Below, in pieces: positions 12,736 to 33,867 of a stretch of 64,000 nucleotides of DNA. The stretch covers positions 1 to 64,000 of the forward strand of contig JACRIM010000034.1 in NCBI GenBank assembly GCA_016235815.1, in the 5' to 3' direction. Both the position numbers and the translations under genes were made by a program. Numbering within the stretch: position 1 is the stretch's first letter; every line of letters starts with the position of its first letter. Source of the DNA: Planctomycetota bacterium (GTDB lineage Bacteria; Planctomycetota; Phycisphaerae; UBA1845; UTPLA1). The notes beneath the pieces are model-generated. The model was not told where the DNA came from, searched no databases, and saw only the letters and a list, made by a program, of their open reading frames with translations.

Positions 12736-14190
12736 TCAGAATTGAAAGTAGATGAACGGGTTGGTGTTTTCCGGACTGAGAATCACCAGCACAAGGATCC
12801 AACAGGCGTAACTCACCCCGGCAATCGGCGCGGGGAGGCGGATCGGGTCGCTCCCTCGTCGACGGCGCTCATCGAGTAGTTGGAATGCTGCCATAAGCCC
12901 CAGCAAGGCGAGCATCGGCCCCTTGTTCATCAGCCAGAGCGGGTGATCGACGGCCACCGGAATGACCAGGTGCTTCACGAAATACAACGCGCGACTCAAT
13001 GCGGCGACAGTGGGTTCAGGCTCCGATGCTCCAGCCGGTATGACGGGTTGGCAGCGGAAAAAGACCCATGCGACGTGAACGACAAGGAACGTGACGGCCC
13101 ATGCGACGATTGTGCGGCCGCGCCGCGGCAGCCATTCGCCGATGCTCGCGCACCATTTCGATGAAATCAGCGCAACACCATGAATCGCGCCCCATACGAC
13201 AAACGTCCAACTCGCTCCGTGCCAAAGGCCCGCAAGCAGCATGGTAATCATTAGATTCGCCCCCGTACGCCAAGGTCCGGTTCGCGAACCGCCGAGCGGG
13301 ATGTACAGATAGTCTCGGAACCACGTCGAGAGCGAGATGTGCCACCGTCGCCAGAAATCGCTGAGGCCGATGGCGAGATAGGGGTTTCGGAAGTTCTCGC
13401 TCATGTCAAAACCAAGCAGGCGGGCCGTGGCGATGGCCATGTCGGTGTAGCCGGAGAAGTCGCAGTAGATCTGTCCGCCGTAACAGAGCATGGCGAGCCA
13501 TAGGTCGCGCGTCGTGAAGTGTGTCGGATCGGCGAAGACCGGGTCGACCAGTGTTGCGAAGTTGTCTGCGATGAGGAGTTTCTTAGTCAGGCCGACCAAA
13601 AAGAGCATGACGGCGGCATCGAGCCGGCTCCAGTCGAATCGTTTGTCATTTCGAAGCTGCGGCAGAAACTCGACCGCTTTCACGATCGGGCCGGCGACAA
13701 GCTGCGGGAAAAAGGCCACGAACAGTGCGAAGTCCACAAGCGATCGGCATGCGGGGATCCGCCGGCGATAGACGTCGATCGTGTAACTCATGGTTTGGAA
13801 GGTGTGAAAGCTGATACCGACCGGCAGGATGATGCCGAGCGTGTGCCAGCCGGTGTGAATGCCGGCGTTGGCAAGCAAGTCGCGCAGTGAAATCACAAAA
13901 AAATCGGCGTACTTAAACACGGCGAGGATGCCGAGATTTGCCGCGAGGCTGGCGATGAGCAACACGCGGCGCCGGCGTTCGCCCTGCACGTGCTCCAGTC
14001 CGAGGCCGACGCCATAGTCGAAGAGGGTTAGCCCAATGACGATGGACAGCAGCTTCGTATTCCATGCGGCGTAGAAGACATAGCTGGCCGCAAGCAAAAA
14101 GCCGTGGCGAAAGCGACGCCCGGGAACAGCCCAATACACGCCGAAGACGACGGCGAAGAAGAACGCGAATTGCCAGCTTGAAAAAATCAT
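12736..14190 (-). CDS. MBOAT-family O-acyltransferase (AlgI-like)
   Basis: An integral-membrane acyltransferase of 484 residues with about ten membrane segments. The conserved core contains the CDFSGYTDMA segment, the NFRNPYLA-to-DFWRRWHISL block and the catalytic His in LWHGASW (near residue 323). AlgI-type proteins move acetyl groups across the inner membrane to an extracytoplasmic partner that modifies a polysaccharide. The partner is probably the gene at 14200-15282, which ends 9 bases upstream. It is the last gene of the long glycan locus, so O-acetylation of that glycan is the likely role. Confidence 0.93.
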   Translation of the reverse strand: MIFSSWQFAFFFAVVFGVYWAVPGRRFRHGFLLAASYVFYAAWNTKLLSIVIGLTLFDYGVGLGLEHVQGERRRRVLLIASLAANLGILAVFKYADFFVISLRDLLANAGIHTGWHTLGIILPVGISFHTFQTMSYTIDVYRRRIPACRSLVDFALFVAFFPQLVAGPIVKAVEFLPQLRNDKRFDWSRLDAAVMLFLVGLTKKLLIADNFATLVDPVFADPTHFTTRDLWLAMLCYGGQIYCDFSGYTDMAIATARLLGFDMSENFRNPYLAIGLSDFWRRWHISLSTWFRDYLYIPLGGSRTGPWRTGANLMITMLLAGLWHGASWTFVVWGAIHGVALISSKWCASIGEWLPRRGRTIVAWAVTFLVVHVAWVFFRCQPVIPAGASEPEPTVAALSRALYFVKHLVIPVAVDHPLWLMNKGPMLALLGLMAAFQLLDERRRRGSDPIRLPAPIAGVSYACWILVLVILSPENTNPFIYFQF

Positions 14191-14199
14191 GGAGCGTGG

Positions 14200-15282
14200 T
14201 TAGTCCGTTGCCCCTTGTTCGTAGTTGACAAGTCTCGGCGCGTCGAGTGGAAGAAGCCCGGCGGCGACCGCGGCGCGGGCCGCGCGGCGGCTGATCGTTC
14301 GGGCAAGCGGCAGGCCGACGTGAATTTCTTCGATGAAATCGCGATTGGTGCGCGGCACCTCGCTCGGAGGGCAGGGGATGAACGGCACGCCATGGCCATC
14401 GCAGATGGCGGCGATCGTCTCGATGGCGATTGGCTCGACGGAGTTCCATCGCTCCTCGGTGCGAGGGCAGTTCGGGATATACACGACGATGGTTTCGATC
14501 TCTTTCGCGCGGAGTTCATCAAATAGTTGGCCAAGGCGCTCGATCGCCGGGGCGGTGGGTGAGAACTGCGGGATCGTTGCGGCCTCAACTGAGGCGACGT
14601 TTCCAAGCAGACGCTCCTCGACGCTTCGCAGTTGCCTCCCTTGTGCCCATGGATGTTCGAATCCTTTCTCGGGAAGCGGTGCCGCGACGCGCTCGCGGAG
14701 TTCGCGGGCGTGTTGCGCATGCTTAGGCAGAGCGGCGGCAAGATGCTCCTGGCTCCACATGCGAAGCTCGTAGCGTTGGTCATATACGGCCCACAACGGC
14801 GCGGTCGTTCGGCGGAGATACGCGCCGATGACATCAAGGGACGGCCCATCGCGCGTGACGGACTCGAGCAGATCGGTGAATGAGAACAGGTTGCGAGCCG
14901 CCTCGGTCGGCGCGTAGTCCTGTCGCACTTCGCTCGCGTTGATGCCGAGGACGACGAGTTCGGGGCGGGCCTCGCGGAAAAGGATTCGTGATAGGGCAAG
15001 CCACTCGACGACCTTGGAGCCGGCAATGCCGAGGTTGAATGTCTGACGGCCGGTGAGGTTCTCAAACTCCTCCGGCACCAGGGCATACTTGGCGCGCGAT
15101 GAACCCATAAGCACAACGCCGGGCATCGGGCCGGTCGCAAGTGCCGCGGGCTTGCGCTGATAGTCGGCAACCGTGTAGGCGCGAAGCGTGGGGCGTAGTC
15201 GGCGCACGGATTGATCCGCGACGGCGAGAGTGGCCAGCGCAACAAGCAGGATCACGGCCCGTCGTCGGTGTCCGTTAGTCAC
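14200..15282 (-). CDS. SGNH-like membrane-anchored protein, probable partner of the MBOAT
   Basis: A protein of about 360 residues. One membrane segment (about 8-25) is followed by an extracytoplasmic domain with a GSSR motif near residue 58-62 and an NLG segment, resembling the SGNH hydrolase-like proteins that work beside AlgI homologues (AlgJ/AlgX, DUF1574 types). I chose the GTG at 15282 because GGGAG lies upstream, the membrane segment follows directly, and the codon overlaps the stop of the preceding methyltransferase by 8 bases, suggesting coupled translation. Catalytic His/Asp residues near the C-terminus are not certain. Confidence 0.75.
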   Translation of the reverse strand: MTNGHRRRAVILLVALATLAVADQSVRRLRPTLRAYTVADYQRKPAALATGPMPGVVLMGSSRAKYALVPEEFENLTGRQTFNLGIAGSKVVEWLALSRILFREARPELVVLGINASEVRQDYAPTEAARNLFSFTDLLESVTRDGPSLDVIGAYLRRTTAPLWAVYDQRYELRMWSQEHLAAALPKHAQHARELRERVAAPLPEKGFEHPWAQGRQLRSVEERLLGNVASVEAATIPQFSPTAPAIERLGQLFDELRAKEIETIVVYIPNCPRTEERWNSVEPIAIETIAAICDGHGVPFIPCPPSEVPRTNRDFIEEIHVGLPLARTISRRAARAAVAAGLLPLDAPRLVNYEQGATD

Positions 15283-16030
15283 GCGGTGCAGCTCCCGGTG
15301 AGGCGTCCTTACGGAAGACGAGGACATAGTCATGGGCGGCGAAGTGAGGCTGCGTGGTTTGCAGCGGCAATCGGCTCGCCCGACGAATCGTTTGATTCCA
15401 CGAGTGCATGACCCGATTGGGGATGATCCATCGGCCGCGGAGACGCGGGACGAGCGGCCAGCACAGGTTGCATGAGTACGTTCGTTCGAGCGACGCGCCG
15501 CACGATTGGATCGCGTCGCACCACTGTCGGGCCGTCCAGCGGTTCTGCGAAGTTCGCAGCGTCGCCCAGTCGCAACGCGGCCACAGCCGTTCCAATGTTG
15601 CATTCACGCGTTGATAGGGTGCGTGGAGGTTGCAGACGGTGACGATGATCCGGCCGTTCGGAGTACAGCAGCGGACGAATTCTCTTGCGGCGGCGTCGGG
15701 CCGTGGAAACAGATTCGCCGTCATGTGGCAGAGAATCGAGTTGAAGGAGCCGTCGGCAAATGGGAGCAACTGGCCATCACCACAGATGCACGGTGTTCCT
15801 CGAGGAATGTCGCCGAGGCTTAAGTCGATGCCGATGACCGATCGCACGCGTGGGGCGATGGCGTTCATGTAATGCCCGCGATAGCAGCCGACGTCGAGAA
15901 CGCGCTCCCTCGGCGACCAGTCGATTTCTTCAAAAAGCACGCGGTCCGGCTCGATGCGCTGGAAGCTCTGCTTCGGATCGGGCAGCACCTTCTCAAGCTG
16001 CCAGTTCATCCATCGTCGAAGGTTCTTCAC
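15275..16030 (-). CDS. Class I SAM-dependent methyltransferase
   Basis: A protein of 251 residues with the SAM-binding motif VLDVGCYRGHYM near residue 43 and an acidic residue closing the next strand (IGIDLS). The later part has the usual methyltransferase-11 pattern, with an LPFADGSFN-type segment. It starts with GTG, preceded by GGAG at good distance. It lies within the glycan locus and probably methylates a sugar or a lipid-linked intermediate; the target cannot be read from sequence. Confidence 0.85.
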   Translation of the reverse strand: MKNLRRWMNWQLEKVLPDPKQSFQRIEPDRVLFEEIDWSPRERVLDVGCYRGHYMNAIAPRVRSVIGIDLSLGDIPRGTPCICGDGQLLPFADGSFNSILCHMTANLFPRPDAAAREFVRCCTPNGRIIVTVCNLHAPYQRVNATLERLWPRCDWATLRTSQNRWTARQWCDAIQSCGASLERTYSCNLCWPLVPRLRGRWIIPNRVMHSWNQTIRRASRLPLQTTQPHFAAHDYVLVFRKDASPGAAPRD

Positions 16031-17074: not shown

Positions 17075-18196
17075 TCAGCGTGTATGCGATTCAAGCCAGC
17101 CGTGGGATTCCATCGTATCGACAATCTTTTTCGCGGCGCGGCCGTCGCCAAATAGATCGGGGCGCTTGCTCGTAGGTCGAAATTCACTCATCTGCTTCAA
17201 CAGGAAAGGGGTATCGATGCCGCCGTCGCGCCACGCGGTGATCTGCCAGCCGGCCTGTTCGATCATGGGCCAGGGCGTGGTGAACAGCGTGATGCACGGC
17301 TTGCCCGCGAAGAACGCCTCTTTCTGCAAACCACCCGAGTCGGTAAGCACAACCGTCGCGTGATTGATGAGTTGCAGGCTGTCGAGGTATCCGACGGCCG
17401 GGAAGACGGCGACGTTTGGCATTTTGCAGATTGCATCCCACAGGCCATGGCGCTTACAGGCGTTCTCGGTGCGAGGGTGCGCGGGGAAGGCGATCTTCAT
17501 GGGCGATTTCGTAAAGAGCTCCATGAGCCGACGGGCCGATTCGGGTGAGTCCGTGTTGTTGGGCCGATGTACGGTGAGCAGGGCGTAATCGGAGTCGAGA
17601 AGGTTTAGCCGTTTGAGCACATCGGATCGTGCTGCCGCCGTTTTGCTGTAGCGCTGATAAGCGTCGTACATCACATCGCCCGAGAAATAAACGCCCTTGG
17701 TGATGGCCTCAGCCGCAAGGTTCTTCACGCTCAACTCATCCGGGCAGAATCGCAGTGTCGAGGCGATGTCCGCGACGAGGCGGTTGACCTCTTCGGGCGA
17801 GGTCATGTCAAAGATGCGCGGCCCGGATTCGACATGGGCAAAGGGAATGTGCAGCTTGACCGCGGCCAGTGCGGCGGCCAGCGTGCTGTTCGTGTCGCCA
17901 AAGAGGATCACGCAGCGAGGCTTCGTCTCAAGAAAGACCTGCTCCAGCCGGATCAACATGCGGCCGGTCATCTCGCCGTGCGAACCGCTGGAGATATCGA
18001 GGTTGATATCCGGGGTCGGCAGATCCAGCTCCTTGAAGAAGACATCGCTCATGTTGTCGTCAAAGTGCTGGCCCGTGTGCACGACGTATTCGCGATAGCC
18101 GCGACTGCGAAGCTCGGCCGAAAGCGGGCCCATTTTGATGAACTGCGGTCGATTGCCGACAACGGTGAGGATGTCAAACACTGAACGATCGGGCAT
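17075..18196 (-). CDS. Non-hydrolysing UDP-N-acetylglucosamine 2-epimerase family protein (WecB/WbpI-like)
   Basis: The protein has the two-lobe epimerase fold: GNRPQFIKMGPL at the N-terminus, HTGQHFDDNMSD, GDTNSTLA, SPEEVNR and the C-terminal TDSGGLQKEA motif. GxRPQFIK is closer to the WbpI subgroup, which acts on UDP-diacetamido-uronic acids, than to plain WecB with GTRPE. The usual HVEAGLRS segment is here HVESGPRI, a departure next to the active site. The ATG at 18196 has AGAAGG five bases upstream and is preferred to the one at 18211. A WbpI-type activity would fit the sugar amidotransferase encoded in the same locus. Confidence 0.85.
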   Translation of the reverse strand: MPDRSVFDILTVVGNRPQFIKMGPLSAELRSRGYREYVVHTGQHFDDNMSDVFFKELDLPTPDINLDISSGSHGEMTGRMLIRLEQVFLETKPRCVILFGDTNSTLAAALAAVKLHIPFAHVESGPRIFDMTSPEEVNRLVADIASTLRFCPDELSVKNLAAEAITKGVYFSGDVMYDAYQRYSKTAAARSDVLKRLNLLDSDYALLTVHRPNNTDSPESARRLMELFTKSPMKIAFPAHPRTENACKRHGLWDAICKMPNVAVFPAVGYLDSLQLINHATVVLTDSGGLQKEAFFAGKPCITLFTTPWPMIEQAGWQITAWRDGGIDTPFLLKQMSEFRPTSKRPDLFGDGRAAKKIVDTMESHGWLESHTR

Positions 18197-18250
18197 GAAT
18201 GCCTTCTCCATGAATGGATGGCGCGGGATGCGGCCGCGAGGTCGTGGATT

Positions 18251-20245
18251 CTAGCGAGGCGGAGGCTTGCCCACCAAGGGCTCCAGACGGCGCATCCAGT
18301 TGTTCCACGGCGTGCTGTAAATGCGAACGCTGCGCAGGAGTAACCGATTCTGCCCCCTGGAGCCGCGGAAGTCGAGTTTGACGTATCGGAATTCCGGGGC
18401 GGAAGTCATGCGAAACCGGGAACAGAGCGGCGTGATGGTCAGCCGTGCATCGGGCGCACGGTCTTTTGTGTCATAGATTTGGTACCAGTTTTTCTGATCG
18501 GACGAGACCCACCACGCGAAATCGGTTAACGCCTCGGACTCGGCATAGTCGATCATTTCGAGTCGGTCCGCACGGAGTGACCGGCCCAGATCGAAAACCA
18601 CCGTTGCAGGTCCAGGTTCAGAAGCGGCGGTGTATTCCTTGTCGACGATTCCACGCAGTGCGATGTCGACGCCATGCCCGTCCGGGCAAGCCGGCTGAGC
18701 GACCACGGTCGCGCCGCGAGCGCGGTCAACAGGCTTGTTCACCCCAACGGCCGCCAGAAAAACAAAGAGCACACCAAGGCCCAGAGCCATTGAGCGACCG
18801 GATCGTGCCGGGTTCGGCGTCGACGTCACAATTGCGGCCGCGGCTCCGAATCGAAGCGTGACGTAGCCGAGCAGAATCGGCACGACGGTCGTGAGCAGGC
18901 GATTCGCCGAATCGCCCCAGCCGATGCGGTAAGGTTGTTCGCGAAAAACGCCGAGTCCGTAAACCACCGCGAGGTAAACGCCGGCGCCGACCGTCCACCA
19001 GTCCTGTCGATGGAATCGGGGCAGCCCGAACGCGACTGCGATCAGCACCAACAGAATCGCCCACGACGCTCCCCAGCGCCCGTCGCTGAAAATGTTCTGC
19101 CCCATCGTCTCCATGCATCGGGCCATGTGTTCGGGCCGTTTGACGGTTACACCGACGACAAGAGCCGTCGCGCCAAACATCATGAGCCACGGTAGCCCCG
19201 CCATGCATCGGCGGACAATCGGCCGGTCAGGGATCATCGATGTTGCTGCGAACACCGCAATAATGCCCATCAGCCCCCAGGCCTTGGTCGGGGAGAGGAT
19301 GTCAGTCCCGCCGCCAATGAGCGCGATGAGCCGCAGGTACCAGACGACCGTTAAGGCGGAAACGGTGACGATGCACAGGAGCTTCGTTCGCCGACTGATA
19401 GTCTCGGTCCATAGAAGTGGGGCGGCAAACAATGCGAAATAAAGCGGCGACTCCGTGCGAAGCAGGATGAACCCGAAAAACGCGGCCATGCCGGGTATGA
19501 ACCAGCCCCGCTCCGATCGCGTTGTGCCAAGCCACATGCATGAAACGGCGAGAAACAGATACATCGCCGACGGCAGATTATTGTGAACGTAAAACGACTG
19601 AAAGAGGACGAAGTACGTTGATACGAAAAAGAGTGTGGCGATGGTTGACATCATTCGGGCCATTGCCGTGCCTACGTTGAGCGTGCGAAGGCCGGTCGCG
19701 CAGATGCCGAAGAAGGTGATCGCGAAGACTGCGGCCATCGTCGGCCACAAGGCGTAGAGAAAGTCCACGCCGATCATGAGTGAGGCCGATTGAGCGATCG
19801 GTACAAAGACGCCCCACGACGCAAGTGCTGGGTGACACGCCGGGTCGAATCCGCCGAATTGCGCGAGCTGCCGACCGAGGATAATCTGGGTAAAGGAGTC
19901 GTACGAGAGTGCGGAATAGTCGAAGCGGCTCGCCATTGCCGCGACGATGGCGACAAGGACCGTGGATGCCAGGAACTCAATACCATCGCGTCGGGAAAGG
20001 GATCGTGCCCGCTGAAGCTGACGTAGCACCACAATCGCGGCGATTCCCAGCCCGCCAAACATGCTCCATGCTGAGTAAGGCAGTTTGACGCAAAGTAACA
20101 GCAGGCCCCAAACGACCCACAGAAGCAATCCCCACAGCAGCCCCGGCCACCATGCGAGCCAACGGCTGCCGTGTGGAGTAGCGCGCGCAGCAATAATTCC
20201 GCCGGCAAGGTGTAGGAACAGAATGAAAAGGATCTGCGCGAACAT
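18251..20245 (-). CDS. Large polytopic membrane protein with discoidin-like C-terminal domain
   Basis: A protein of 664 residues. About 500 residues form many membrane segments with short loops. The first larger loop holds DYSALSYDSF, a position where GT-C type glycosyltransferases carry their catalytic acid. The last 130 residues leave the membrane and look like an F5/8 type C (discoidin) beta-sandwich, with an ATVVFDLGR segment, WWVSSDQKNW and FRYVKLDFRG. Such domains bind sugars. It may be a GT-C glycosyltransferase or polymerase, but no signature settles this. It sits in the glycan locus 9 bases from the next gene. Confidence 0.65.
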   Translation of the reverse strand: MFAQILFILFLHLAGGIIAARATPHGSRWLAWWPGLLWGLLLWVVWGLLLLCVKLPYSAWSMFGGLGIAAIVVLRQLQRARSLSRRDGIEFLASTVLVAIVAAMASRFDYSALSYDSFTQIILGRQLAQFGGFDPACHPALASWGVFVPIAQSASLMIGVDFLYALWPTMAAVFAITFFGICATGLRTLNVGTAMARMMSTIATLFFVSTYFVLFQSFYVHNNLPSAMYLFLAVSCMWLGTTRSERGWFIPGMAAFFGFILLRTESPLYFALFAAPLLWTETISRRTKLLCIVTVSALTVVWYLRLIALIGGGTDILSPTKAWGLMGIIAVFAATSMIPDRPIVRRCMAGLPWLMMFGATALVVGVTVKRPEHMARCMETMGQNIFSDGRWGASWAILLVLIAVAFGLPRFHRQDWWTVGAGVYLAVVYGLGVFREQPYRIGWGDSANRLLTTVVPILLGYVTLRFGAAAAIVTSTPNPARSGRSMALGLGVLFVFLAAVGVNKPVDRARGATVVAQPACPDGHGVDIALRGIVDKEYTAASEPGPATVVFDLGRSLRADRLEMIDYAESEALTDFAWWVSSDQKNWYQIYDTKDRAPDARLTITPLCSRFRMTSAPEFRYVKLDFRGSRGQNRLLLRSVRIYSTPWNNWMRRLEPLVGKPPPR

Positions 20246-22289: not shown

Positions 22290-23129
22290 TCAGGCGAAAG
22301 TGCCCCAGGCGATGAGGTTCCAACTCAAGAAGCGAAACGGCCCCGGCAAATGATTGTCGAATACGTAGTCGAGGCCGTGCGCAACCTTGGAAAGCGGCGT
22401 AAAGATAAACTGCGGCCGCAGCACGACCTCTGCGAACGGGGTTGAGAAATACCCCTGATACTCAACTTGTACATTCTTGATTCCGTTCACCGTAAGCAGA
22501 TCGCGAAGTTCGTCGCGCGTGAAATAGTGCTGATCCTCGGAGTAGGACGAATCCAGCTTTTGACGCATTCGGCGCAGCCCCTGAATCAACGGATTGCCGC
22601 GGTTCGGCTCGAAGGCGACGAAATAGGACCCGGGCCGGGCGATGCGATGGAGCGACTGCATGACCTGCGAGACATCGAGCATGTGGTGCAGCGCCCCCAG
22701 CAGAATGACCATGTCGGCAATGCCCGAGGGTATTTCGGCGGACTTGATGTTCGCGCAAAGAAAGTCGGCGGGGCAATCCGCGTTGAGCCTACGGGCCTCC
22801 TCAATCATCTGCGCCGAATGGTCGATGCCGACATAGCGGTTGTAGCGTCCTTTGAGGTAGCGGGCAGCGCGGCCCAATCCGCAGCCCACCTCCACAATCG
22901 TGCCAATTTGCCCCGATTTTCCCAACGCCGGTTCCACACATCGCGCAACTTGGTAACGCCGAATGCCCGATGACGATGCGGCTGCGTCCTTCCGCCGGTA
23001 TTCCGCGACGATGCGATCGAAAAGTTGTCGATCGTGAATCTCGACCGGGTCTTCGTGCGTACCCGCGGCATCGCTTGCGGCAATTGGCTCCGCACTGGCG
23101 GGCTTGATGGCAAGGGCCTCATCAGTCAT
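22290..23129 (-). CDS. Class I SAM-dependent methyltransferase
   Basis: A protein of 279 residues with the SAM motif VEVGCGLGRAARYLKG, an acidic strand end in YVGIDHS and a typical post-motif region (ILLGALHHMLD). The C-terminal third is less conserved and has no membrane segment. The ATG overlaps the stop of the amidotransferase gene (ATGA), so translation is coupled. It probably methylates a sugar nucleotide or glycan intermediate. Confidence 0.88.
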   Translation of the reverse strand: MTDEALAIKPASAEPIAASDAAGTHEDPVEIHDRQLFDRIVAEYRRKDAAASSSGIRRYQVARCVEPALGKSGQIGTIVEVGCGLGRAARYLKGRYNRYVGIDHSAQMIEEARRLNADCPADFLCANIKSAEIPSGIADMVILLGALHHMLDVSQVMQSLHRIARPGSYFVAFEPNRGNPLIQGLRRMRQKLDSSYSEDQHYFTRDELRDLLTVNGIKNVQVEYQGYFSTPFAEVVLRPQFIFTPLSKVAHGLDYVFDNHLPGPFRFLSWNLIAWGTFA

Positions 23130-25183
23130 GGGGCAATTCTCCCCGCACCAAGGTCAGACATCGGTCGAATCTTTGGTATTCGATTGATCGTGTTGATCGC
23201 CTGTTCAAAATCGACGCCGATGATCTCGCAATACCATCGCATCGACTTCCATCGCGGTTTATTCTCTTCGGCGACACGGGCCAGCGCCTCATCGCGCGTG
23301 ATGATCCCTTCGCGAATCTGATTGCTTCGGAAGGTGTCGTTCTCGCAGAAGCCCGCGACGGTTTGATAAATGTAATTGTAAAAGGATGCGGTGCCGTCGC
23401 CAATGCGCCATGTTGTCTTGGTGTCGTCGGCGAGTTCCCAGTCATACTCGCCGCGCAGCGTGGAGACGACTTCCTGCTCATCCCATTTGATGTAGCGATA
23501 CAAGTTGATGAAGTCCCGCTTGACGATGTAGTAACAGGCGTAGGCAAAGAACGTGTCGGCGAGAGAAACGTTGAGATACGCCGGATTTCTCAGGTACTGC
23601 CCGCCGTAATACTGAAGAATCTTCACCTTGCTCATCACCGAGAGTGCATAGGCGTGGTCGTCGCTGACCTTTGCCGGCGCAATCTTGGAGAAACCAGTCT
23701 TGAAATCCGTCCGCTCCAGCATGTTCTCACCGAGCATCGTCACCGGTACGCCGAGCTGCCGCTTGAGTCGGTTCGCATGGTAGAAATACTGTTTGTCGCC
23801 CGCCATAAAGAGCGGGATCATCCCGAGGTCCGGCCGGCGAAGCCAGGCAAGAACATTCTTGCGAATATTCCGTCGCTTCTTGGCGATGTCGGCCGAGACG
23901 AGGATGTGCTCGACGCCGAGCGCGCCGCACATCCGTGAGATGTTCCGCCGTGCCAAGTCTGTGACCATTCCCCAGTCATAGGTGTAGGCCACGGGGTTCA
24001 TCTTCAGCACACGTTTCACGACGTGCAAAGCATGGCAACTGTCGCGGCCGCCGCTGATCCCGACGAGGCAATCGGGCCGACCGTCCGTTCTGCGAAAGGG
24101 TGCGACCAGTTGCTCCAAAGCGTCCTGGCCGTGATAGGTCAGTTTCTGATATCGCTTGCAGTAGTTGCAGACGCCGGATTCATCAAAGGCGATGTACGGC
24201 ATCGTCTCCGGAAGGATGCATCGTGTGCAGCGGCGCAGGTTTCTTGGCGGTGCGCCTTCACCACATTTGGGCGCCTCGTCGCGACCGCTGGCCAGGCTGC
24301 TATGGCGTTTGGTGTCGTTGGCCCTTGCCTCGGGAAGAATCTCGATCACCTTGCGAGCATCGCCGGGTCGCGCGGCCGTGATGGCGGTACCGACCGGCTC
24401 GGCGAGCAAGAATGGCCGCAGGGAAGCATCACTCAGTTCGACGAGGTACGCCTCGCCGGCGCGGACGTGTTGAATCGTGCAATCACCCATCTCGCTGCGA
24501 ATGGCTCGCTCGCGCAGAAGCATTTCAAGAATGTATCGCTCGGATGCGAAGACCAGGGACTTATTACCGTTGGCGCGTCCGAGGTAGAGCGAGCCGTTGT
24601 TGGTTGCGAGAACAACCTGATTCAAATCGCCGAAGAGAAGCGCGACCGACGCCGCGCCGCGAATCTGGCGGAACGTCTCCTGAACCGCTTCGATCAACGG
24701 CCGACCCTCGCCCATGAAGTGCCTCGTCAAGCCGAGAATCACTTCGGAATCCACGTCGCTGCGGCGCGTCATGGTCGGGTAGCGCCGCCACAGTTCGTCG
24801 AAGTTCACAATGATGCCGTTGTGGATGCCGACGAGGTTCTCCGCCGTAACGGGCTGGTTGTTGAGGTACTCGTCCTGCCCACCGGTGGTGACGAGCCGTG
24901 AGTGGCCGATGATGGCGACGGGCCGGCTCGACGAGCCGTTGCCATTGGAGTGGCCGTTGAGCGTATCGCGCATGAGTCCGCGATAACGCGGGCGGCGGAT
25001 CATCTCGGTGGCGCGGGTGTCTTCTTTGTAGATGCGAATCGCATCGGTCGTGAGCGCGGCGACGCCGGCGGCTTCTTTTCCGCGTGACTCGGAAAGCGTG
25101 AAAAGACGCTCGACGGCGTGCTCGATCCACGCCGGAGAATGGTTGCGTGCGTCGCTGGTGATAACTCCGAAGATGCCGCACAT
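23126..25183 (-). CDS. Fusion of class II glutamine amidotransferase and WbpG-type N-acetyl sugar amidotransferase
   Basis: The first 290 or so residues form an N-terminal-nucleophile glutaminase: the chain starts MCGIFGV, so Cys2 becomes the catalytic residue. After a short linker, a CTRCILPETMP ... GVCNYC zinc motif (near 317-340) introduces a PP-loop ATPase with SGGRDS near 376-381, typical of the WbpG/PseA sugar amidotransferases that turn an acetamido group into an acetamidino group. In known systems such as P. aeruginosa WbpG, ammonia comes from separate HisH/HisF-like proteins; here a class II glutaminase is built in. The overall plan recalls asparagine synthetase B, but the zinc motif and the rest point to WbpG. 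The gene couples to a methyltransferase by an ATGA overlap. Confidence 0.88.
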   Translation of the reverse strand: MCGIFGVITSDARNHSPAWIEHAVERLFTLSESRGKEAAGVAALTTDAIRIYKEDTRATEMIRRPRYRGLMRDTLNGHSNGNGSSSRPVAIIGHSRLVTTGGQDEYLNNQPVTAENLVGIHNGIIVNFDELWRRYPTMTRRSDVDSEVILGLTRHFMGEGRPLIEAVQETFRQIRGAASVALLFGDLNQVVLATNNGSLYLGRANGNKSLVFASERYILEMLLRERAIRSEMGDCTIQHVRAGEAYLVELSDASLRPFLLAEPVGTAITAARPGDARKVIEILPEARANDTKRHSSLASGRDEAPKCGEGAPPRNLRRCTRCILPETMPYIAFDESGVCNYCKRYQKLTYHGQDALEQLVAPFRRTDGRPDCLVGISGGRDSCHALHVVKRVLKMNPVAYTYDWGMVTDLARRNISRMCGALGVEHILVSADIAKKRRNIRKNVLAWLRRPDLGMIPLFMAGDKQYFYHANRLKRQLGVPVTMLGENMLERTDFKTGFSKIAPAKVSDDHAYALSVMSKVKILQYYGGQYLRNPAYLNVSLADTFFAYACYYIVKRDFINLYRYIKWDEQEVVSTLRGEYDWELADDTKTTWRIGDGTASFYNYIYQTVAGFCENDTFRSNQIREGIITRDEALARVAEENKPRWKSMRWYCEIIGVDFEQAINTINRIPKIRPMSDLGAGRIAP

Positions 25184-25204: not shown

Positions 25205-26083
25205 CTATCGATGGATCTCGCGTCGGATGGCCGACACTTGTTCGCAGACAATCCCGAGGAAAAAGAGAATGATGCCGGTGATGAAGAGCAACACCATGGA
25301 CTCAGTGATGTGGATACGTTCCATCAGGCTGTAAATGACAAAATAGACGACACTGGCGCCCATAAAGAAGAACGCAAGCGGCACGAACACCCGCATCGGG
25401 TTGAACAACACCGTCAGGTTGACGATCAGCATGAGTACGCGGAAGCCATCTTGAAAGATTTTGACGGAGCTATTACGACCTTCGCGGCGGCGCGTGGTGA
25501 TCGGGACGTAATTTACACTTGAGCCAGTGCGAAACATGGCGAGCGTGCTGGTCGTCGAGAAGGAAAACCCGTCCGGCATCAGGTGCAGGTATCGCCTGAT
25601 AACGGCGGTCTTGAAGGATCGCAGGCCGGAGTTGAGATCGGGGATCTTTTTTGCCGCGAGGAGATTCGCGAACCAGGCGAGAATGCGTTTGCCCGGCATT
25701 CGTATCAGGGACTGGTGCGAAGCGCCGTCGCGCGCGCCGACGACCATGTCAAAGCGGCTCGCATCGGCCGCGACCTTCATCACCTCTGCGAATCCATGCT
25801 GCCCGTCGGCGTCGCAGGTGATGACGTAATCCGTCGTTACGGCTTGAATACCAGTCTTCAGGGCCGCGCCGTAACCGCGGTTATACGGATGGGACAAAAC
25901 GGTCACGCCATGATGCCGCGCCTCGTCGGCGGTTGCGTCGGTCGAGCCGTCGTCGACCACGATTATCTCGCGGCAGCCCGGAAGCGTCTTTAGTTCGTCC
26001 AGCACTCCACCGATCGCGCCGGCTTCGTTGAAGGCGGGAATGACCAGTGAAAACGTGATGGCAGCGGCCGGTTGGTCGCTCAT
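25205..26083 (-). CDS. Family 2 glycosyltransferase with two C-terminal membrane segments
   Basis: The GT2 domain opens with LVIPAFNEAGAIG, followed by VVDDGSTD and CDADGQH, the metal-binding acidic pair. Two membrane segments fill the last 90 residues (about 215-280), as in dolichyl/undecaprenyl-phosphate glycosyltransferases (DPM1/GtrB types). It probably loads a sugar onto a polyprenyl phosphate for later transfer by a GT-C enzyme, possibly the polytopic proteins of this locus. The start at 26083 has GGGACGAG upstream; a longer frame from 26233 has an unconvincing N-terminus. Confidence 0.88.
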   Translation of the reverse strand: MSDQPAAAITFSLVIPAFNEAGAIGGVLDELKTLPGCREIIVVDDGSTDATADEARHHGVTVLSHPYNRGYGAALKTGIQAVTTDYVITCDADGQHGFAEVMKVAADASRFDMVVGARDGASHQSLIRMPGKRILAWFANLLAAKKIPDLNSGLRSFKTAVIRRYLHLMPDGFSFSTTSTLAMFRTGSSVNYVPITTRRREGRNSSVKIFQDGFRVLMLIVNLTVLFNPMRVFVPLAFFFMGASVVYFVIYSLMERIHITESMVLLFITGIILFFLGIVCEQVSAIRREIHR

Positions 26084-26381
26084 CGCGCTCGTCCCACGAA
26101 GTTCATCTCGGCCTGGAATTGTATTGGAGTAATCGCCATGCATGGTCGGCTCGAGGAGGCGGGATGGCGTCGATTGCGAAGGTTCGACGTTATCCGGGTT
26201 GCGACGGAGGGTAGGGTGTCGAAGGTCATCCATAACGTTCTGACGGACCCGTGCCGGTCAAGCAACGCCTCTGTTCCGTGCATAGCCTAACCGCGTTTTT
26301 GGCGATGCTCCAGTGGCCGTGTTCATGCGGCATTTGAAGTTCTCCGAAACGCACAAAGGATAAGTCAAGGCGCCCCTATTC
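26084..26381. other. Intergenic gap within the glycan locus
   Basis: 298 bases without a recognisable gene separate the large fusion from the GT2 gene. A TACAAT box on the minus strand (26118-26123) could be part of a promoter for GT2, but it has no good -35 partner. I see no hairpin terminator. Confidence 0.4.
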
Positions 26382-29300
26382 TTACACGCCTCGGTAGACT
26401 TCGCATAACCGTTTTACGACGGAAGAATGGCCAAAATTCGACTCAGCCGTGGTGCGAATCTCTTGAGCATTGTAGTTGCGGATATTCGATACGACAGCGA
26501 GGATGGCGTGTGCGAGCGCGTCGGGGTTCCCATTTTCGCAGAGCCGGCCGACGCGGTCATTAAGCACGATATCCTCCGGCCCGCCACAACGGGTCGCGAC
26601 GATGGGCTTTCCGCTGGCCATTGCCTCCGTGAGCACACATCCGAACGTCTCCGATTGGCTGCACAGGACAAGCACATCGCACTCGTCGCGCAAGATTCGA
26701 GCGATCTTTTCACGGCTCTGGTGCCCCTGCACGATGACCGCGCTGTTCAGATTTCGTCGTCGGATCTCCTCATTCAATTCCACTTCTTGTTCGCGGCTCT
26801 CTCCGCCGCCCACAAGTCGCAATGTCGCCCCGGGCACGGTTTCTCGAACCAGGACGAACGCATCCAGCAGAAGCGGTAGCTGCTTGATCGGCACGAAATA
26901 ACCCACGAAGACGATTCGAGGCGAGGAGGAATCCGGTGTCCACTCCGCCGGCGGATGAAATGCCTCCGTGTCCACGACGTTGGGCACGACCATGACATGA
27001 TCGGATTCTGACGGACCCAACTCCGACGAAACAGCCCTTCCCTGTGCACGCGAAACGACGATCACCCGCTTCGCCGCGCGCATGGCCCGAAGCGTGGATC
27101 GCTTCACCAACGGGTTTCGCATGAGCATCGAAAAAGGACCGGTGTGTTCCGTGATGATGAGAGGATGGCCGGTCTTTCGGGCGACTCCCAACCCGGCAGC
27201 GCCGTCGAGATACGCGGTGTGGGCGTGAATGATGTCAAAGTCGAAGCCTTGTTGAATCCACGGCAGTGCCGCCACCACGCTCGACTGATACGACCAACCC
27301 TGCGTGAAATAGGGACCAAAGATACGGTAGGGTAGATAGACAACCGGCACACTGTCGTACTCCCACCATTGCAGGCAGCGCCGGTGGTAACGCCAGTATG
27401 TCCGATTCGCCCGCCAGGCCTTGATCGGGTTGCGATGGGTCATCCAGTACGGTCGACCCACCACCACCCGTGCATCAACGCCTCCGTGTTGGCGAAGGGC
27501 CTTCACCTGCTCATGGATGAACGGCCCCGAGGACGGCTGTTCCGGGTGTGGGAACATGTGCGAAAGCACGAGCACGCGATGCGTCGCGTCGGTGATCGAC
27601 TCCACACGCGCCAATGGCTTCCATGCGCCGGCCATGATCTGTTTCGGATCATCCGGCAGTTCACCGATAAGTTTTCGCTTCACCGCGCGGGCTACGTTTC
27701 GCATCGCTCCGCGCACCCCGCGCACAGCCTGCAACTCGGATGCGGCCGATTCCCATCGGTCGCGAAACTCGCGAGCCTGTCTTCGGCGATGGGCGGCGAT
27801 TTCATTGCGCCGATCGAGTTTATCATTGAGACGGCGCAGGCGCCGTTCGGCCGCGGCGTAGGCCTGCTCTGCCTGGTCGCGGGCGGTTTCTATGCGGTTA
27901 AGGATCTCCGTCAGATTAAGTCGATCCTCCTCGAAATGCTGATGGGCCTCGGCCGCGATCTGTAGCAATGGAGTCGACATCTCGTATGGGTCATAGGTCG
28001 GCGTCGATTCATGAGGTTCGACGAGCAATGGCTTGGGCACCACACCGGCCGATTCAACGGACATCCCCCACGAATACATGATTTCCCCGTGCCGCGTACG
28101 AATCAGATTGTGACCGGGTTCCAGCCTGATAAACGGGGCCACTGAATTACACGACTGTCGCGGCACATACCGCAACGTGTGAATCTCAACGTCCGGTCCA
28201 AGGCACACCGCCAGCCCCGCGCCGTATCGGTCGGGCCACCACGACTGCGTCACCGTCCATTCCCGTTGCTCATGAAGTCCACTGACTTCATCATTGGCCA
28301 GCAGTCTCCGATGCGCAAGAATTCCGTCGATTAGATAAACACCCAGACGCCCCCTTGAGCCGTGCGAGGACACATTGGCAATGATCCGATCGCCGATCGA
28401 AGGTGAAATCGGAAATCGCACCTCCAACGTGAGAGGGCTTGAAACATTCCATTCACTGCGGATGCCAGTCTCTGTTTGCCATGTACCGGGTGGAGTGAGG
28501 TAGCGCGCCCAGCACGATCCCTCGTGAAATCGGCGGGTGCATTGGAGCCGATTAGCGAAGTCGATTTCCAGTAGATCGGCGGATGACTCCGGGAGTGAAG
28601 ATTCTGTGCAGTCGCTGGTACGATCCCGTCCGAAGAGGGCCATCAAGTCGCTTCGATGTGCGTGTCGTGCCGATTCAGCCAGGTCTTGAGACCAGATTTT
28701 GCGCCGAAGTGCGGCCGTCAGTCTCATGAGCGGTGTTCGCATCGAACCGGATTCTTGCCGTGCGGAACCGCATTCGGGGCACGTGATAGTGACGCTCAGT
28801 CGGAAGTTCCGGAGCTGGTGCGCCACGGCAATGCAGGGATCATGCGGCCCGTGGCTGTCGTCGCCCGTATAGCGAAGTTCCTCGGCGACTAAGTCCGGCG
28901 CAAGAATGCCAAGCAAAGAGCCGGGACTAAACGACTGGCATCGTCCGTGCACGTGGTAGGCCGCGCCACAATCTGCACACAAGGCATGGCCGGCCTCCAG
29001 TTGCTCGTTGTTTGGACAAGTCAGCAGCACATAGCGCTTCGCCACACGATTAATCTCGCGTAAAACGGCCAATAAGCTTGGGGCATCCAGGTATTCCAGA
29101 ATGTTGTTCGCCATGACAAGGTCGAACTGCTTGTCGGCGAAAGGCAAGTGTTCCGCCGATGCCGCGACTCGATCGCGCGAAACGTAGTAAAGGGCGTCGG
29201 GACTGATATCAACGCCGGTCACGCGAATGCCGGATGGAAATCGATTGATCATCGCTCCGTCGCCGCAACCAACATCCAAAACAGAACGCACACCGTCGGG

Positions 29301-30332
29301 CACGAGCGATAATCCATCCACATGCACTTGTCGCTGTCTCGGAGTAGGCTCATGTCCAAGCAGATCGACGTGCCGATTCGCTTGTGCGCCGGATCGTGCG
29401 GCGCGCTCCAATGGTTCGACGCCGCTCCCCGCAATGAACTTATAGCAAGCGCCTCGAATAGGAAGCGGAAACTCGTGCGAGCCTGCCACCCCAATGACAT
29501 GAACGCCATCTCCATACGCGCGCATGTCGGAAAGCGATTCAGGCGTTGGATTCGGATGTTCGTGGATGGGGTCCTGGCGATAGTGAATCAAGGCCACGGG
29601 CGAATCCGCGCCGGCCAGTGAAACGACGTGATCAAAATTTTGCGAGACACAAAAATCGCGGAGATCAGGGTTGAGCACGCGCGAAGCGTAGAGCTGAGCG
29701 CTCCAGGGATCACGGTCGATCGGCGTATGCAGGTAGCACGCATTACAAACCGCAAGACCGGCATCGCCGTTAAGCGCCTTGTGAAACAGGATCATCAGGC
29801 CGCCTAACGAATGGCCGATGCAACGCAATTCCTCTGTCTCACTGAATCTCCCTCGAATCAACCCGGCAAGATCGTGCATCTCGGCGACCGCCTTGCCGAC
29901 CATGCTCCAGTGCGGATGTTCCAGATAGAACGCGTCCTTGTCCCATTGACGATGCGATCGCTCACCGGTCCAGGCCATATCAAATGAGAAAACGCGAAAG
30001 CCACGCCTCGCCAGTTCGTGGCCATACGCCAGCGTGGCTTCGCCGTCCAGGCCGAACACTTCCCGGCGGCCACACTCATTGGTCTGGTGCATCGCAAGGA
30101 TTGGCTCGCGATGAAGGCGATTGTCAGGCTCCGCAACGGAGAGAGGAATTCGCTCCCCGTGTCCATTCTCGTATTCGTACTCGTCGAGCCGATAGCCCGG
30201 TAATTTGCGTTCGCCGATCTTGCGCGGAACAGTGCTCGAACCCCACGGCCGTGCCGGCGAACCCAATGCGGCCCGCAAGCCCGTTCGCAGTTCTTCGGGT
30301 CTGAGAATCTGAGGCCTGCTGCACTGAGTCAT
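26382..30332 (-). CDS. Giant esterase / methyltransferase / GT4 glycosyltransferase fusion
   Basis: About 1316 residues with at least three enzymes in line. Residues about 1-320 are an alpha/beta hydrolase of the acetyl-esterase/dienelactone hydrolase type, with a GHSLGG nucleophile near 174 and a late SHEF histidine. Residues about 345-590 are a class I methyltransferase (SVLDVGCGDG), ending with Cys pairs (CADCG, CPECG). Residues about 590-790 look like a beta-sandwich of the kind attached to Wzt proteins, followed by a coiled coil (about 800-880). Residues about 915-1316 are a GT4 glycosyltransferase with FxGYFVPIKQ and the EX7E motif in ETFGCVLTE. The ATG at 30332 clears the upstream gene. 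All parts fit building and modifying one glycan. Confidence 0.88.
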   Translation of the reverse strand: MTQCSRPQILRPEELRTGLRAALGSPARPWGSSTVPRKIGERKLPGYRLDEYEYENGHGERIPLSVAEPDNRLHREPILAMHQTNECGRREVFGLDGEATLAYGHELARRGFRVFSFDMAWTGERSHRQWDKDAFYLEHPHWSMVGKAVAEMHDLAGLIRGRFSETEELRCIGHSLGGLMILFHKALNGDAGLAVCNACYLHTPIDRDPWSAQLYASRVLNPDLRDFCVSQNFDHVVSLAGADSPVALIHYRQDPIHEHPNPTPESLSDMRAYGDGVHVIGVAGSHEFPLPIRGACYKFIAGSGVEPLERAARSGAQANRHVDLLGHEPTPRQRQVHVDGLSLVPDGVRSVLDVGCGDGAMINRFPSGIRVTGVDISPDALYYVSRDRVAASAEHLPFADKQFDLVMANNILEYLDAPSLLAVLREINRVAKRYVLLTCPNNEQLEAGHALCADCGAAYHVHGRCQSFSPGSLLGILAPDLVAEELRYTGDDSHGPHDPCIAVAHQLRNFRLSVTITCPECGSARQESGSMRTPLMRLTAALRRKIWSQDLAESARHAHRSDLMALFGRDRTSDCTESSLPESSADLLEIDFANRLQCTRRFHEGSCWARYLTPPGTWQTETGIRSEWNVSSPLTLEVRFPISPSIGDRIIANVSSHGSRGRLGVYLIDGILAHRRLLANDEVSGLHEQREWTVTQSWWPDRYGAGLAVCLGPDVEIHTLRYVPRQSCNSVAPFIRLEPGHNLIRTRHGEIMYSWGMSVESAGVVPKPLLVEPHESTPTYDPYEMSTPLLQIAAEAHQHFEEDRLNLTEILNRIETARDQAEQAYAAAERRLRRLNDKLDRRNEIAAHRRRQAREFRDRWESAASELQAVRGVRGAMRNVARAVKRKLIGELPDDPKQIMAGAWKPLARVESITDATHRVLVLSHMFPHPEQPSSGPFIHEQVKALRQHGGVDARVVVGRPYWMTHRNPIKAWRANRTYWRYHRRCLQWWEYDSVPVVYLPYRIFGPYFTQGWSYQSSVVAALPWIQQGFDFDIIHAHTAYLDGAAGLGVARKTGHPLIITEHTGPFSMLMRNPLVKRSTLRAMRAAKRVIVVSRAQGRAVSSELGPSESDHVMVVPNVVDTEAFHPPAEWTPDSSSPRIVFVGYFVPIKQLPLLLDAFVLVRETVPGATLRLVGGGESREQEVELNEEIRRRNLNSAVIVQGHQSREKIARILRDECDVLVLCSQSETFGCVLTEAMASGKPIVATRCGGPEDIVLNDRVGRLCENGNPDALAHAILAVVSNIRNYNAQEIRTTAESNFGHSSVVKRLCEVYRGV

Positions 30333-30363: not shown

Positions 30364-32223
30364 TCAAGTATGTGCGATTTCTCCGCAGGGATTCGGTTGG
30401 ATCCGGGTGCCCCAGGCCGGCTCCGTGCGAAGCATGACCACGCCGTGCGGCGAAGAACCAACGCGGCCCTCGTCCACGCGGAAGGTGATCGCCCGGTGCC
30501 ACTGGCAGAAATACTCCGGTTTGCGATTCATCAGCAGGGGAGTCTCCTTCATGATGACGCAGCTCATGACGTATTCGTGCTGGCGAAGGTTTGGCTCAAC
30601 GATTGCGACCTCCAGCGTGTGACGACCTGCGTTCAAGCCGCCCTCGATCGGCCAATACCCAATCGCCACCACGGTGTTGTCCGGCAAGTACAGGCTATAG
30701 CTGAAGGCACATTGTGAGATCGGTTTGGTTACATCGACGACTGCTTCAATGCGAATGGTTTGCCCAAGCGAGAAGACTGATGCGTGAGCCGCTCCGTCGG
30801 CGCTGAGGCTGATCGCTTGAAACGCGGCGTACTGCGAAAAGAAGCGATCCCGGCTCTCGGCACGCAGCGTGATGTCGGTCCCGGTCAACTCAGAAGTCTT
30901 GGCCGGCCGGCGTGGGGTGCTCGTTTCCTCGGAGAGTGTCGGCGTGGTAAGCGCGAATTGCTGATGAATCCAGCGCTGGTGCGATGAGTCGAGCGTGCCG
31001 AGGATGCGATACTGCTCGCCGACGAACTCTTCGACCTGAATGACATCCCCATCGCTCTTCGCGTGCTCGATCTCCAATAGCGCGTTGCCGGATTCCCATG
31101 CCTGAATCGGCACAACAAAGACAAATGGCGCGTGGCCATACTGCCCGCCGGTCGCCGTCACGCTTCGAACACGTGCCCCATGCACCATCTCCGGCTCGCT
31201 CCACAGCATGTACTTTCGATCCGTCATCAGGTACGCGGCGTGGGAGGCGTCGTTATCCATCGGCGCGCCGGGAACGATCTCCTCGCGCCACTCGCTGCCG
31301 CAGGAAAGGGCGATTCGCTTGATCGCATGACATTGCGTCGGCGGGCCGCCATGATTCGTGACAAATCGCAACAACACCTCCCGTGCGTGTTCGGTTTCCT
31401 CACGAGTCTGCGCAGCCTTCATGTCGCGGCGGCTCATGCGGGCATTGCGCGCCTTGAGGCGCAGCTCTTCCTGTCGCACGATCGAGGCGTAATAGGCCTT
31501 CGTCACGTCAATCGGCGTGCCATCCTGCGCAATCTGCCCGCGATCCACCCAGATCACGCGTTCGCAAAGCTGCTGCACGCTGCCAAGGTCGTGACTGACG
31601 AACAACACCGTCGCGCCGGAGCCTTCGGTCAGGCGTTTCATCCGCTCAACGCATTTTCCAGAGAAATACGCGTCGCCCGCGCCAAGCACTTCATCGATGA
31701 TCAGTATCTCCGGCTCAATCGCGGTTGCCGCGGAGAATGCAAGCCGAGCATACATCCCCGCGGAATACGTCTTCACCGGCTGATCGATGAATTCCTCCAA
31801 CTCCGTGAAGTCGATGATCTCGTCCTCAAGTTCGGAAATGCGACTGGATGTGAGTCCTTGATACGCCAGCGACGCACGGATGTTCTGCCGACCCGTGAAC
31901 TCCGGGTGGAAGCCGGTACCCAGTTCCATCAGGGCCTGCACCTTGCCACGAACCGCCACGGTGCCCTCGGTTGCGGCGATGTTCCCTGAGATGACTTTAA
32001 GCATCGTGCTCTTGCCTGAGCCGTTGCGGCCGATGATGCCCAGCCGTTCGCCGCGTCCGATGGTTAGATTCAGCCCGCGTAAAGCCCAAAACTCTCGATA
32101 GCGCGATTCAAACCCAGGGACAAATCGCGAAACGCCCAGCGCGTCCATGACTTTGTCCGCGGGACGGCGGTACAGCTTGTACATTTTGCCGACGCCCGAC
32201 AGTTGAATTGCAGTGGTGGACAT
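30364..32223 (-). CDS. Wzt-type polysaccharide ABC transporter ATP-binding protein
   Basis: The ATPase domain has Walker A GRNGSGKST (near 65-73), the YSAGMYARL signature and Walker B ILIIDEVLGAGD. From about residue 280 the chain continues as one or two beta-sandwich regions, the place where Wzt proteins bind the terminal residue of the polysaccharide. At 619 residues it is longer than a plain O-antigen ATPase, in line with such a sensor domain. No Wzm-type permease is encoded in the window, so the membrane partner must lie elsewhere. It is the first gene of the long minus-strand locus, with a good TATAAT box just upstream. Confidence 0.92.
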   Translation of the reverse strand: MSTTAIQLSGVGKMYKLYRRPADKVMDALGVSRFVPGFESRYREFWALRGLNLTIGRGERLGIIGRNGSGKSTMLKVISGNIAATEGTVAVRGKVQALMELGTGFHPEFTGRQNIRASLAYQGLTSSRISELEDEIIDFTELEEFIDQPVKTYSAGMYARLAFSAATAIEPEILIIDEVLGAGDAYFSGKCVERMKRLTEGSGATVLFVSHDLGSVQQLCERVIWVDRGQIAQDGTPIDVTKAYYASIVRQEELRLKARNARMSRRDMKAAQTREETEHAREVLLRFVTNHGGPPTQCHAIKRIALSCGSEWREEIVPGAPMDNDASHAAYLMTDRKYMLWSEPEMVHGARVRSVTATGGQYGHAPFVFVVPIQAWESGNALLEIEHAKSDGDVIQVEEFVGEQYRILGTLDSSHQRWIHQQFALTTPTLSEETSTPRRPAKTSELTGTDITLRAESRDRFFSQYAAFQAISLSADGAAHASVFSLGQTIRIEAVVDVTKPISQCAFSYSLYLPDNTVVAIGYWPIEGGLNAGRHTLEVAIVEPNLRQHEYVMSCVIMKETPLLMNRKPEYFCQWHRAITFRVDEGRVGSSPHGVVMLRTEPAWGTRIQPNPCGEIAHT

Positions 32224-32301: not shown

Positions 32302-33867
32302 TCAGGGAAGGCCGAGAAGTGCGGAGGTAAACGCCGCTGCATCGTCCGGCGTCACTTTCAGATCGCCCGTGAAATCGCCGCGTGCAACCGGGTCCAAGGC
32401 GGGAAATGCCGTTCGGTAGGGGAGCAGCCCGTTCATGACGACACTGATGAACCACTTAATGTCGCGACCATCGACGATTCCGTTTCCATCCATGTCGCCC
32501 TTCGGCAACCCCGGGTCGAAGATGATCGCAGGCTTTGCCAGCGGATCTCCAAGGGCCAACTGCTGCCAGCTTAGGGCGGGGAACGACGTATAAGCGGCTT
32601 CGGCCCAGGTCAGACCATTGACCAGAAGATTCAGCATCAGAAACGCATTGTCAGGCACGGTAAAAGAAAAAGGCTCCCAGACATTGCCAACGGCGAAGGT
32701 CCCGCCCGCCGCGACGAAGTTGCCAACTTGTTCCTGATCAAAAAATGGCAGGAGCCCACCCAGGGCGCGTGCGTTATACGATTCCAACGTGTTGAACATG
32801 GCACCCGGTGCGAAGTTGAATCCACTCAGATACGCACTACTGCCGGGCGGGTCTTCTCCATTGCCCGATGCCTGATGGTTTTCTCCATAGGATGCATAGC
32901 CAATCAGTTGTCCGGTCTCTTCGGTACTATCAATGAAATCAAAGGTGGCGTCGTAACGCACATTCCAACCAGCAGCGATCAGCGCATCCCGGGCCAGTTC
33001 ATAATCGTTTCCACCCCAAAATGGGTCCGCGGGGCCGTTGGAAAACAATCCGTCGGCATCGAATTGCCCGCCCAGGGACGTGTCATGCTCGTCGAAAAGC
33101 ACCTTGACCAAGGCTTTGTTGATGTACAACCCCGCGGCCCGATCAACGCACAGCTTTGCCTCGGCCACTGAATTGCCGTCGATTCGGCTGACCAGGTACA
33201 TATCGCCCGGCGTCAGGCGCGTTGCTCCTGAGCCTCCCAGCAACCAGCAGATGTTACTTTGATTAATGAAAGTTTTCTGGACCTGGATGTTCGCGCGACT
33301 AAACGTCTGAATCCCTGCGGTCAACTTGTGATACGGGTTGTCGATGACGTTGTCGGACTTGCTGTCCATCATTCCGCCGGCCTCGCCGATATCAAGATTC
33401 TGCCACAGGAGTGAAAGCTCCGCATCCAACGAGCAATTCGTCGCATCGCCGGCGAGAATCTCATTGGCGGCAAGACTCGGCCCGTCTCCGGAATCAGGCA
33501 TGTCGGTATCGAGAAGTCGGTGCGGAAACGGCCTGATCAGGCAGATTGCAACAATGGTATCCGGCTCCGGGCCGCCCGGTTGAAGCAGGTAATTCCGAAT
33601 CGGCGTACGCACCAATGTCACAAAATTGGCATAGGTTATTTCATAGATGTTCAACTGTGAGGTTTGAAGATCGAGAACGTTTGCGGCGGGAATGTCCGGG
33701 TGGGCGGCAAGATAATAGTCCTTCATCTCCGTGCCCGACGCCGTCACAGAGTTGTACACGACGAGAACTTGTGACGGCAGAATATCCCCGCGCAACTCAA
33801 CCGCCCACGCGATCAAAAAGACGACTGCACCTACAAAACTCACGGCTTTTTTGCTAATTCGATCCAC
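32302..33867 (-). CDS. Exported TIGR03790-family protein with dockerin-like tail
   Basis: A protein of 521 residues. A signal peptide covers about the first 28. The central part has the pattern of the TIGR03790 family (LVVYN near the start, AAHPDIPAANV, a later LLGGSGATRL block). Its function is not established; it occurs in Planctomycetota and a few other groups. The last 70 residues carry two calcium-loop repeats (DMDGNGIVDGRD and DFTGDLKVTPDD), like dockerin repeats. They suggest display on, or attachment to, a cell-surface complex. It starts just after a minus-strand TATAAT box at 33913-33918. Confidence 0.85.
   Translation of the reverse strand: MDRISKKAVSFVGAVVFLIAWAVELRGDILPSQVLVVYNSVTASGTEMKDYYLAAHPDIPAANVLDLQTSQLNIYEITYANFVTLVRTPIRNYLLQPGGPEPDTIVAICLIRPFPHRLLDTDMPDSGDGPSLAANEILAGDATNCSLDAELSLLWQNLDIGEAGGMMDSKSDNVIDNPYHKLTAGIQTFSRANIQVQKTFINQSNICWLLGGSGATRLTPGDMYLVSRIDGNSVAEAKLCVDRAAGLYINKALVKVLFDEHDTSLGGQFDADGLFSNGPADPFWGGNDYELARDALIAAGWNVRYDATFDFIDSTEETGQLIGYASYGENHQASGNGEDPPGSSAYLSGFNFAPGAMFNTLESYNARALGGLLPFFDQEQVGNFVAAGGTFAVGNVWEPFSFTVPDNAFLMLNLLVNGLTWAEAAYTSFPALSWQQLALGDPLAKPAIIFDPGLPKGDMDGNGIVDGRDIKWFISVVMNGLLPYRTAFPALDPVARGDFTGDLKVTPDDAAAFTSALLGLP

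Follow-up and report, generated by a model that had tools for sequence, protein, structure and literature searches.

We identify in the window, as we call the whole 64,000-nucleotide stretch of planctomycete DNA analysed here, a gene whose product is, on balance, probably a multi-module glycan assembly enzyme for an ABC-exported surface polysaccharide, derived from fused genes of one and the same cluster. The gene (26385..30332, minus strand) reads without interruption in the assembled genome from an ATG at 30332 to a stop codon at 26382-26384, on a contig of 151 kb. It encodes a protein of 1316 amino acids in which an alpha/beta-hydrolase, a class I methyltransferase, an all-beta domain, a coiled coil and a GT4 glycosyltransferase follow one another from the N- to the C-terminus. 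The three catalytic motifs that the initial annotation had placed in this one open frame were all located: GHSLGG at residues 173-178, DVGCGDG at residues 353-359 and EX7E (ETFGCVLTE) at residues 1228-1236. By analogy, the setting of the protein matches that of enzymes which terminate the chains of ABC-exported polysaccharides (WbdD, WsaE and Klebsiella O7 ORF6). Terminators of the WbdD/WbbB/ORF6-O7 type are characterised by a methyltransferase, kinase or Kdo transferase for capping, a coiled-coil ruler and, beyond the coil, a membrane-associated helix and a site for polymerase recruitment.

The only long match among 100 relatives came from G026, a genome of the same order but another family, whose protein consists of the methyltransferase, sandwich, coil and GT4 modules, is 41% identical over residues 321-1313 and has no esterase part. 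Sampling 392 genomes of the phylum revealed a 992-aa methyltransferase-sandwich-GT4 protein (38% identical) in G129, which belongs to another class. Three genomes of one genus (G519, G584 and G592) carry Wzm, Wzt, a C5-epimerase-like protein and a 469-473-aa methyltransferase-sandwich protein. A Wzt-like ABC transporter ATPase with a C-terminal Wzt_C domain is encoded 31 bases upstream of the fusion gene (30364..32223, minus strand), and in 6/6 genomes carrying the sandwich domain Wzt is followed, after 0-3 intervening genes, by the methyltransferase-sandwich gene; in G175, a related methyltransferase frame overlaps the end of the Wzt gene. Wzt_C was detected in 7/7 Wzt neighbours (best 5.1e-13), with cap binding predicted, the Wzt_C of the window's own Wzt, at 3.7e-6 and 27.4 bits, staying below the curated cut-off of 30.4. 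A likely Wzm is encoded further along the contig, at 72118-72912 and thus 8 kb beyond the window, and is 58% identical to the Wzm beside the Wzt of G519; Wzm is thus not adjacent to Wzt in the window genome, and none was seen in the stretch of G026 that was read. Outside the window, a second Wzt-like ATPase (G000:C14:28828-30426; 41% over the ATPase domain) adjoins a polysaccharide-deacetylase-like gene and perhaps represents a second ABC export system.

In the described systems, the terminator caps the chain end, its coiled coil sets chain length and the CBM of Wzt admits capped chains only (PMC11231755, PMC3482155, PMC9445017); a Wzt with a cap-reading domain goes with end capping (PMC11231755), and the cap bound by the Wzt of Aquifex consists of methylated sugars (PMC9445017). 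Polymerase modules are found within the terminator chain in Klebsiella O12 WbbB and O7 ORF6 (PMC11231755). The latter, from Klebsiella pneumoniae, resembles the window protein in its N-terminal methyltransferase, immunoglobulin-like CBM, coil and C-terminal GT, and in the presence of wzm and wzt in the cluster (PMC11231755). Its CBM sits between the catalytic part and the coil, the place that the sandwich, a candidate counterpart, takes in the window protein. ORF6-O7 differs in its kinase domain of 223 aa, its two GT2 modules and its lack of an esterase; the window protein has no kinase, a single GT4 and an esterase in front. WsaE of Geobacillus stearothermophilus combines a capping 2-O-methyltransferase with two rhamnosyltransferases in one chain, and wzm and wzt lie just upstream in its cluster (PMC2943079). 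It thus shares with the window protein the fusion of a capping methyltransferase to a GT, but has two GTs, and a sandwich, a coiled coil and an esterase are not described for it. WbdD of E. coli O8/O9a is similar in its methyltransferase, coiled-coil ruler and partner Wzt with CBM (PMC3482155) but has no GT in the same chain; that of E. coli O8 is a simple methyltransferase (PMC3482155). The assertion of the initial annotation that no described protein is known to have this exact order holds, as far as searched, for the full five-part order, but shorter versions have been described, methyltransferase-(kinase)-sandwich-coil-GT in ORF6-O7 (PMC11231755) and methyltransferase-GT-GT in WsaE (PMC2943079).

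Both the methyltransferase domain (28617..29375, minus strand; residues 320-572; DVGCGDG at 29256-29276) and the GT4 domain (26385..27590, minus strand; residues 915-1316; EX7E at 26625-26651) scored far above the Pfam cut-offs (PF08241, 2.1e-16, for the former; PF00534, 2.5e-31, and PF13439, 5.4e-19, for the latter). The methyltransferase, a candidate capping module, has an intact SAM motif, conserved in six genomes, and contains two CxxC pairs (28770..28979, minus strand; residues 452/455 and 518/521) which are invariant in six relatives and may be zinc-ribbon-like. WbdD was not among the matches when a profile of the methyltransferase was searched against the PDB at E 0.01. A PADLOC match to mad2 was discarded as a sign of defence, the match spanning the methyltransferase core only, and this core was likewise the sole matching part in a scan of viral sequences. 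Scanning the genome contigs with the whole protein returned three loci, all of them generic GT or methyltransferase matches. In the GT4 module, the GT-B Glycos_transf_1 domain with its EX7E motif is present, and E1228 and E1236 are kept in G026 and G129.

The all-beta domain between them (28023..28580, minus strand; residues 585-770), a possible glycan-binding module by analogy, had no match among Pfam or PDB sequences. Of 397 genomes searched in the class, 5 carry it, as do 2 of 392 from the phylum; these amount to six different genomes, and since it is conserved in all six it is a real domain. The beta-sandwich fold assigned to it initially was not established: AlphaFold2, run on the single sequence, returned an all-beta prediction at low confidence (mean pLDDT 36.1), which was not used for fold search. 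An origin of the domain by duplication from the C-terminal region of Wzt gained no support (hhalign probability 0.4%), and a Wzt C-terminal profile gave nothing significant against PDB sequences. Judged by its sequence, it appears to be a so far undescribed beta domain, different from those of known terminators. The coiled coil that follows (27720..27968, minus strand; residues 789-871), with the GT4 directly after it, was borne out by a heptad pattern that 0/2000 shuffles reached. The heptad pattern of the G026 relative is also significant (p 0.002). In G129, where the stretch from sandwich to GT4 is far shorter, no coil was clearly recognisable, and coil and GT4 are both absent from G519, G584 and G592.

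Under the reading of the protein as a chain terminator, the GT4 domain would, by family, add sugar to a lipid-linked chain in the cytoplasm, and the methyltransferase would, given its setting, cap the non-reducing end and thereby stop growth. By analogy with the described systems, the sandwich may hold the glycan and the coiled coil may separate the capping and elongation sites, such that only sufficiently long chains are capped; the Wzt_C of the adjacent Wzt would read the cap, and the chain would then be exported. Methyltransferase and sandwich lie too close together for a kinase to fit in, which would make a plain methyl cap likelier than methyl phosphate. The earlier proposal of one scaffold for transfer, methylation and trimming is supported in that sugar transfer is combined with methylation, and the neighbourhood makes it more specific, pointing to an ABC-exported polysaccharide with a probably methyl-capped end; trimming of O-groups by the esterase is possible from the family of that domain, although the corresponding protein of G026 has no esterase gene next to it.

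The terminator reading draws on the split genes of G129, the proximity of Wzt, the consistent occurrence of Wzt_C, the Wzm on the same contig and the significant coil. Against it stand the short coil region of G129, the lack of coil and GT4 in three relatives, a Wzx flippase gene in the window cluster, the separation of Wzm from Wzt, the PDB search without WbdD and the G026 cluster, in which no esterase gene was seen. Several of these points speak for an alternative in which the methyltransferase decorates internal residues or a precursor and has no terminating role, with the GT4 adding one sugar and the coil only holding an oligomer together. Methyltransferase and sandwich do occur without coil or GT4 in three genomes, the coil region of G129 is short, and a Wzx/Wzy pathway could use some of the cluster genes, given the flippase. 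We nevertheless consider internal methylation rather unlikely in view of the Wzt with Wzt_C that lies closely upstream in all six genomes, Wzt_C being a companion of end capping in described systems (PMC11231755). The terminator reading, for its part, fits the three coil-less relatives only if capping proceeds without a ruler or the ruler resides in another protein.

The N-terminal alpha/beta-hydrolase (esterase-like) domain (29418..30332, minus strand; residues 1-305; GHSLGG at 29799-29816) fell below the Pfam cut-off when searched alone (E 0.0003), and its membership of the alpha/beta-hydrolase family is clear from sequence comparison with its relatives. A putative triad is formed by the GxSxG nucleophile together with an Asp and a His (Ser175, Asp254 and His286). 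All three residues are kept in a free-standing esterase of G129 and, where aligned, in larger, more distant hydrolases from the same order; the esterase motif, on whose conservation the initial annotation had made its case depend, is thus conserved. AlphaFold2 on the single sequence of the domain gave a mean pLDDT of 36.5 and was not used for fold search. A cytoplasmic site of action is expected for the esterase: it belongs to a chain that also contains a SAM-dependent enzyme, and on inspection the N-terminus had no apparent signal peptide. Speculatively, its most plausible role there would be to strip an acyl group from the acceptor or from a misacylated chain before capping, exposing a hydroxyl or editing the acylation. 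Alpha/beta-hydrolase folds also include acyltransferases, and the Pfam match is weak; the domain could accordingly be an acyltransferase or a structural module, adding an acyl group or doing neither, which we regard as unlikely with the triad kept in the G129 copy and the larger hydrolases. A stronger version of the esterase reading, in which one polypeptide elongates, de-acylates and methyl-caps an ABC-exported glycan, the esterase acting as a gate such that only a de-acylated end is methylated, recognised by Wzt and exported, and the sandwich founding a new terminator-specific family of glycan-binding domains, is in our view doubtful. An MBOAT and a GDSL/SGNH gene lie next to each other in the window (12736-15603, minus strand); they probably form an O-acetylation pair for the same glycan and are a possible source of acyl groups.

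At the sequence level, the union of an esterase gene and a methyltransferase-sandwich-coil-GT4 gene from one cluster looks like a genuine gene fusion. The cluster of G129 runs in the order Wzt, a 320-aa esterase (L077:11898-12860; 43% identical to window residues 12-300), a formyltransferase, a DUF7033/polysaccharide-deacetylase-like protein, the methyltransferase-sandwich-GT4 protein and a B12-radical SAM-GT4 protein. Esterase and methyltransferase-GT4 are thus two genes in G129, with the formyltransferase and DUF7033 genes between them, and one joined gene in the window. That a relative has both halves as separate genes of a single cluster speaks against unrelated genes having been joined in assembly. 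If the fusion is counted as two genes, six genes of the window cluster have relatives in that of G129: the WbuX-type gene, a 248-aa gene, an F5/F8 membrane protein, Wzt, the esterase and the methyltransferase-GT4. Searching 114 genomes of the order with an esterase profile revealed no second fused copy, and in the G026 cluster the gene preceding the methyltransferase-GT4 is polysaccharide-deacetylase-like. An artefact, an assembly or base error having removed a stop, or two proteins, the second made from an internal TTG start at residue 308, we hold to be very improbable: the two halves are fused in no other genome searched and the TTG lies in the linker with a GGGGAG sequence upstream, but the join falls at a domain boundary, in frame and with even base composition across it, no ATG or GTG stands at the position of the relatives' methyltransferase start, and two further genes separate the halves in G129, so that a simple lost stop would not produce the window arrangement from that of G129.

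Relative to described terminators, what is new here is an esterase in front and a beta domain that seems to be of another kind. The modular logic of building, capping, measuring and exporting, described for E. coli, Klebsiella, Aquifex and a Gram-positive S-layer glycan, would thereby extend to another lineage, with a second candidate domain at the same place as the known one in six genomes and, through the fusion, a functional linkage for an otherwise unassigned esterase. Natural versions exist without coil and GT4 or without the esterase, so the role of each module is testable.

The surrounding genes, all on the minus strand, comprise a GT2 polyprenyl-phosphate sugar transferase-like gene as the next one downstream of the fusion (25205..26233) and a gene that combines a class II glutamine amidotransferase with an N-acetyl sugar amidotransferase of the WbuX type (23126..25183), a WbuX-type gene being present in the G129 cluster as well. 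WbuX relatives usually obtain their ammonia from HisH/HisF-like partners, so a source in cis would be unusual. A membrane protein with an F5/F8-type C domain (18251..20245) has a relative in the G129 cluster (34%), and a UDP-GlcNAc 2-epimerase of the WecB type (17075..18211) has one adjoining the methyltransferase-sandwich gene in G584 and G592. A gene upstream of Wzt (32302-33867) encodes a member of the TIGR03790 family whose tail is weakly dockerin-like. In the three genomes of one genus, the protein encoded between Wzt and the methyltransferase-sandwich gene (L078, L079 and L080; tested in L080) is D-glucuronyl C5-epimerase-like, perhaps a sign that the glycan of these genomes contains uronic acid. 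Next after the methyltransferase-GT4 gene comes a B12-radical SAM gene, which includes a fused GT4 in G129 (L077:4242-6788) and encodes a strong coiled coil at its end in G026 (L041:12050-13696); module swapping seems to be common in this cluster.
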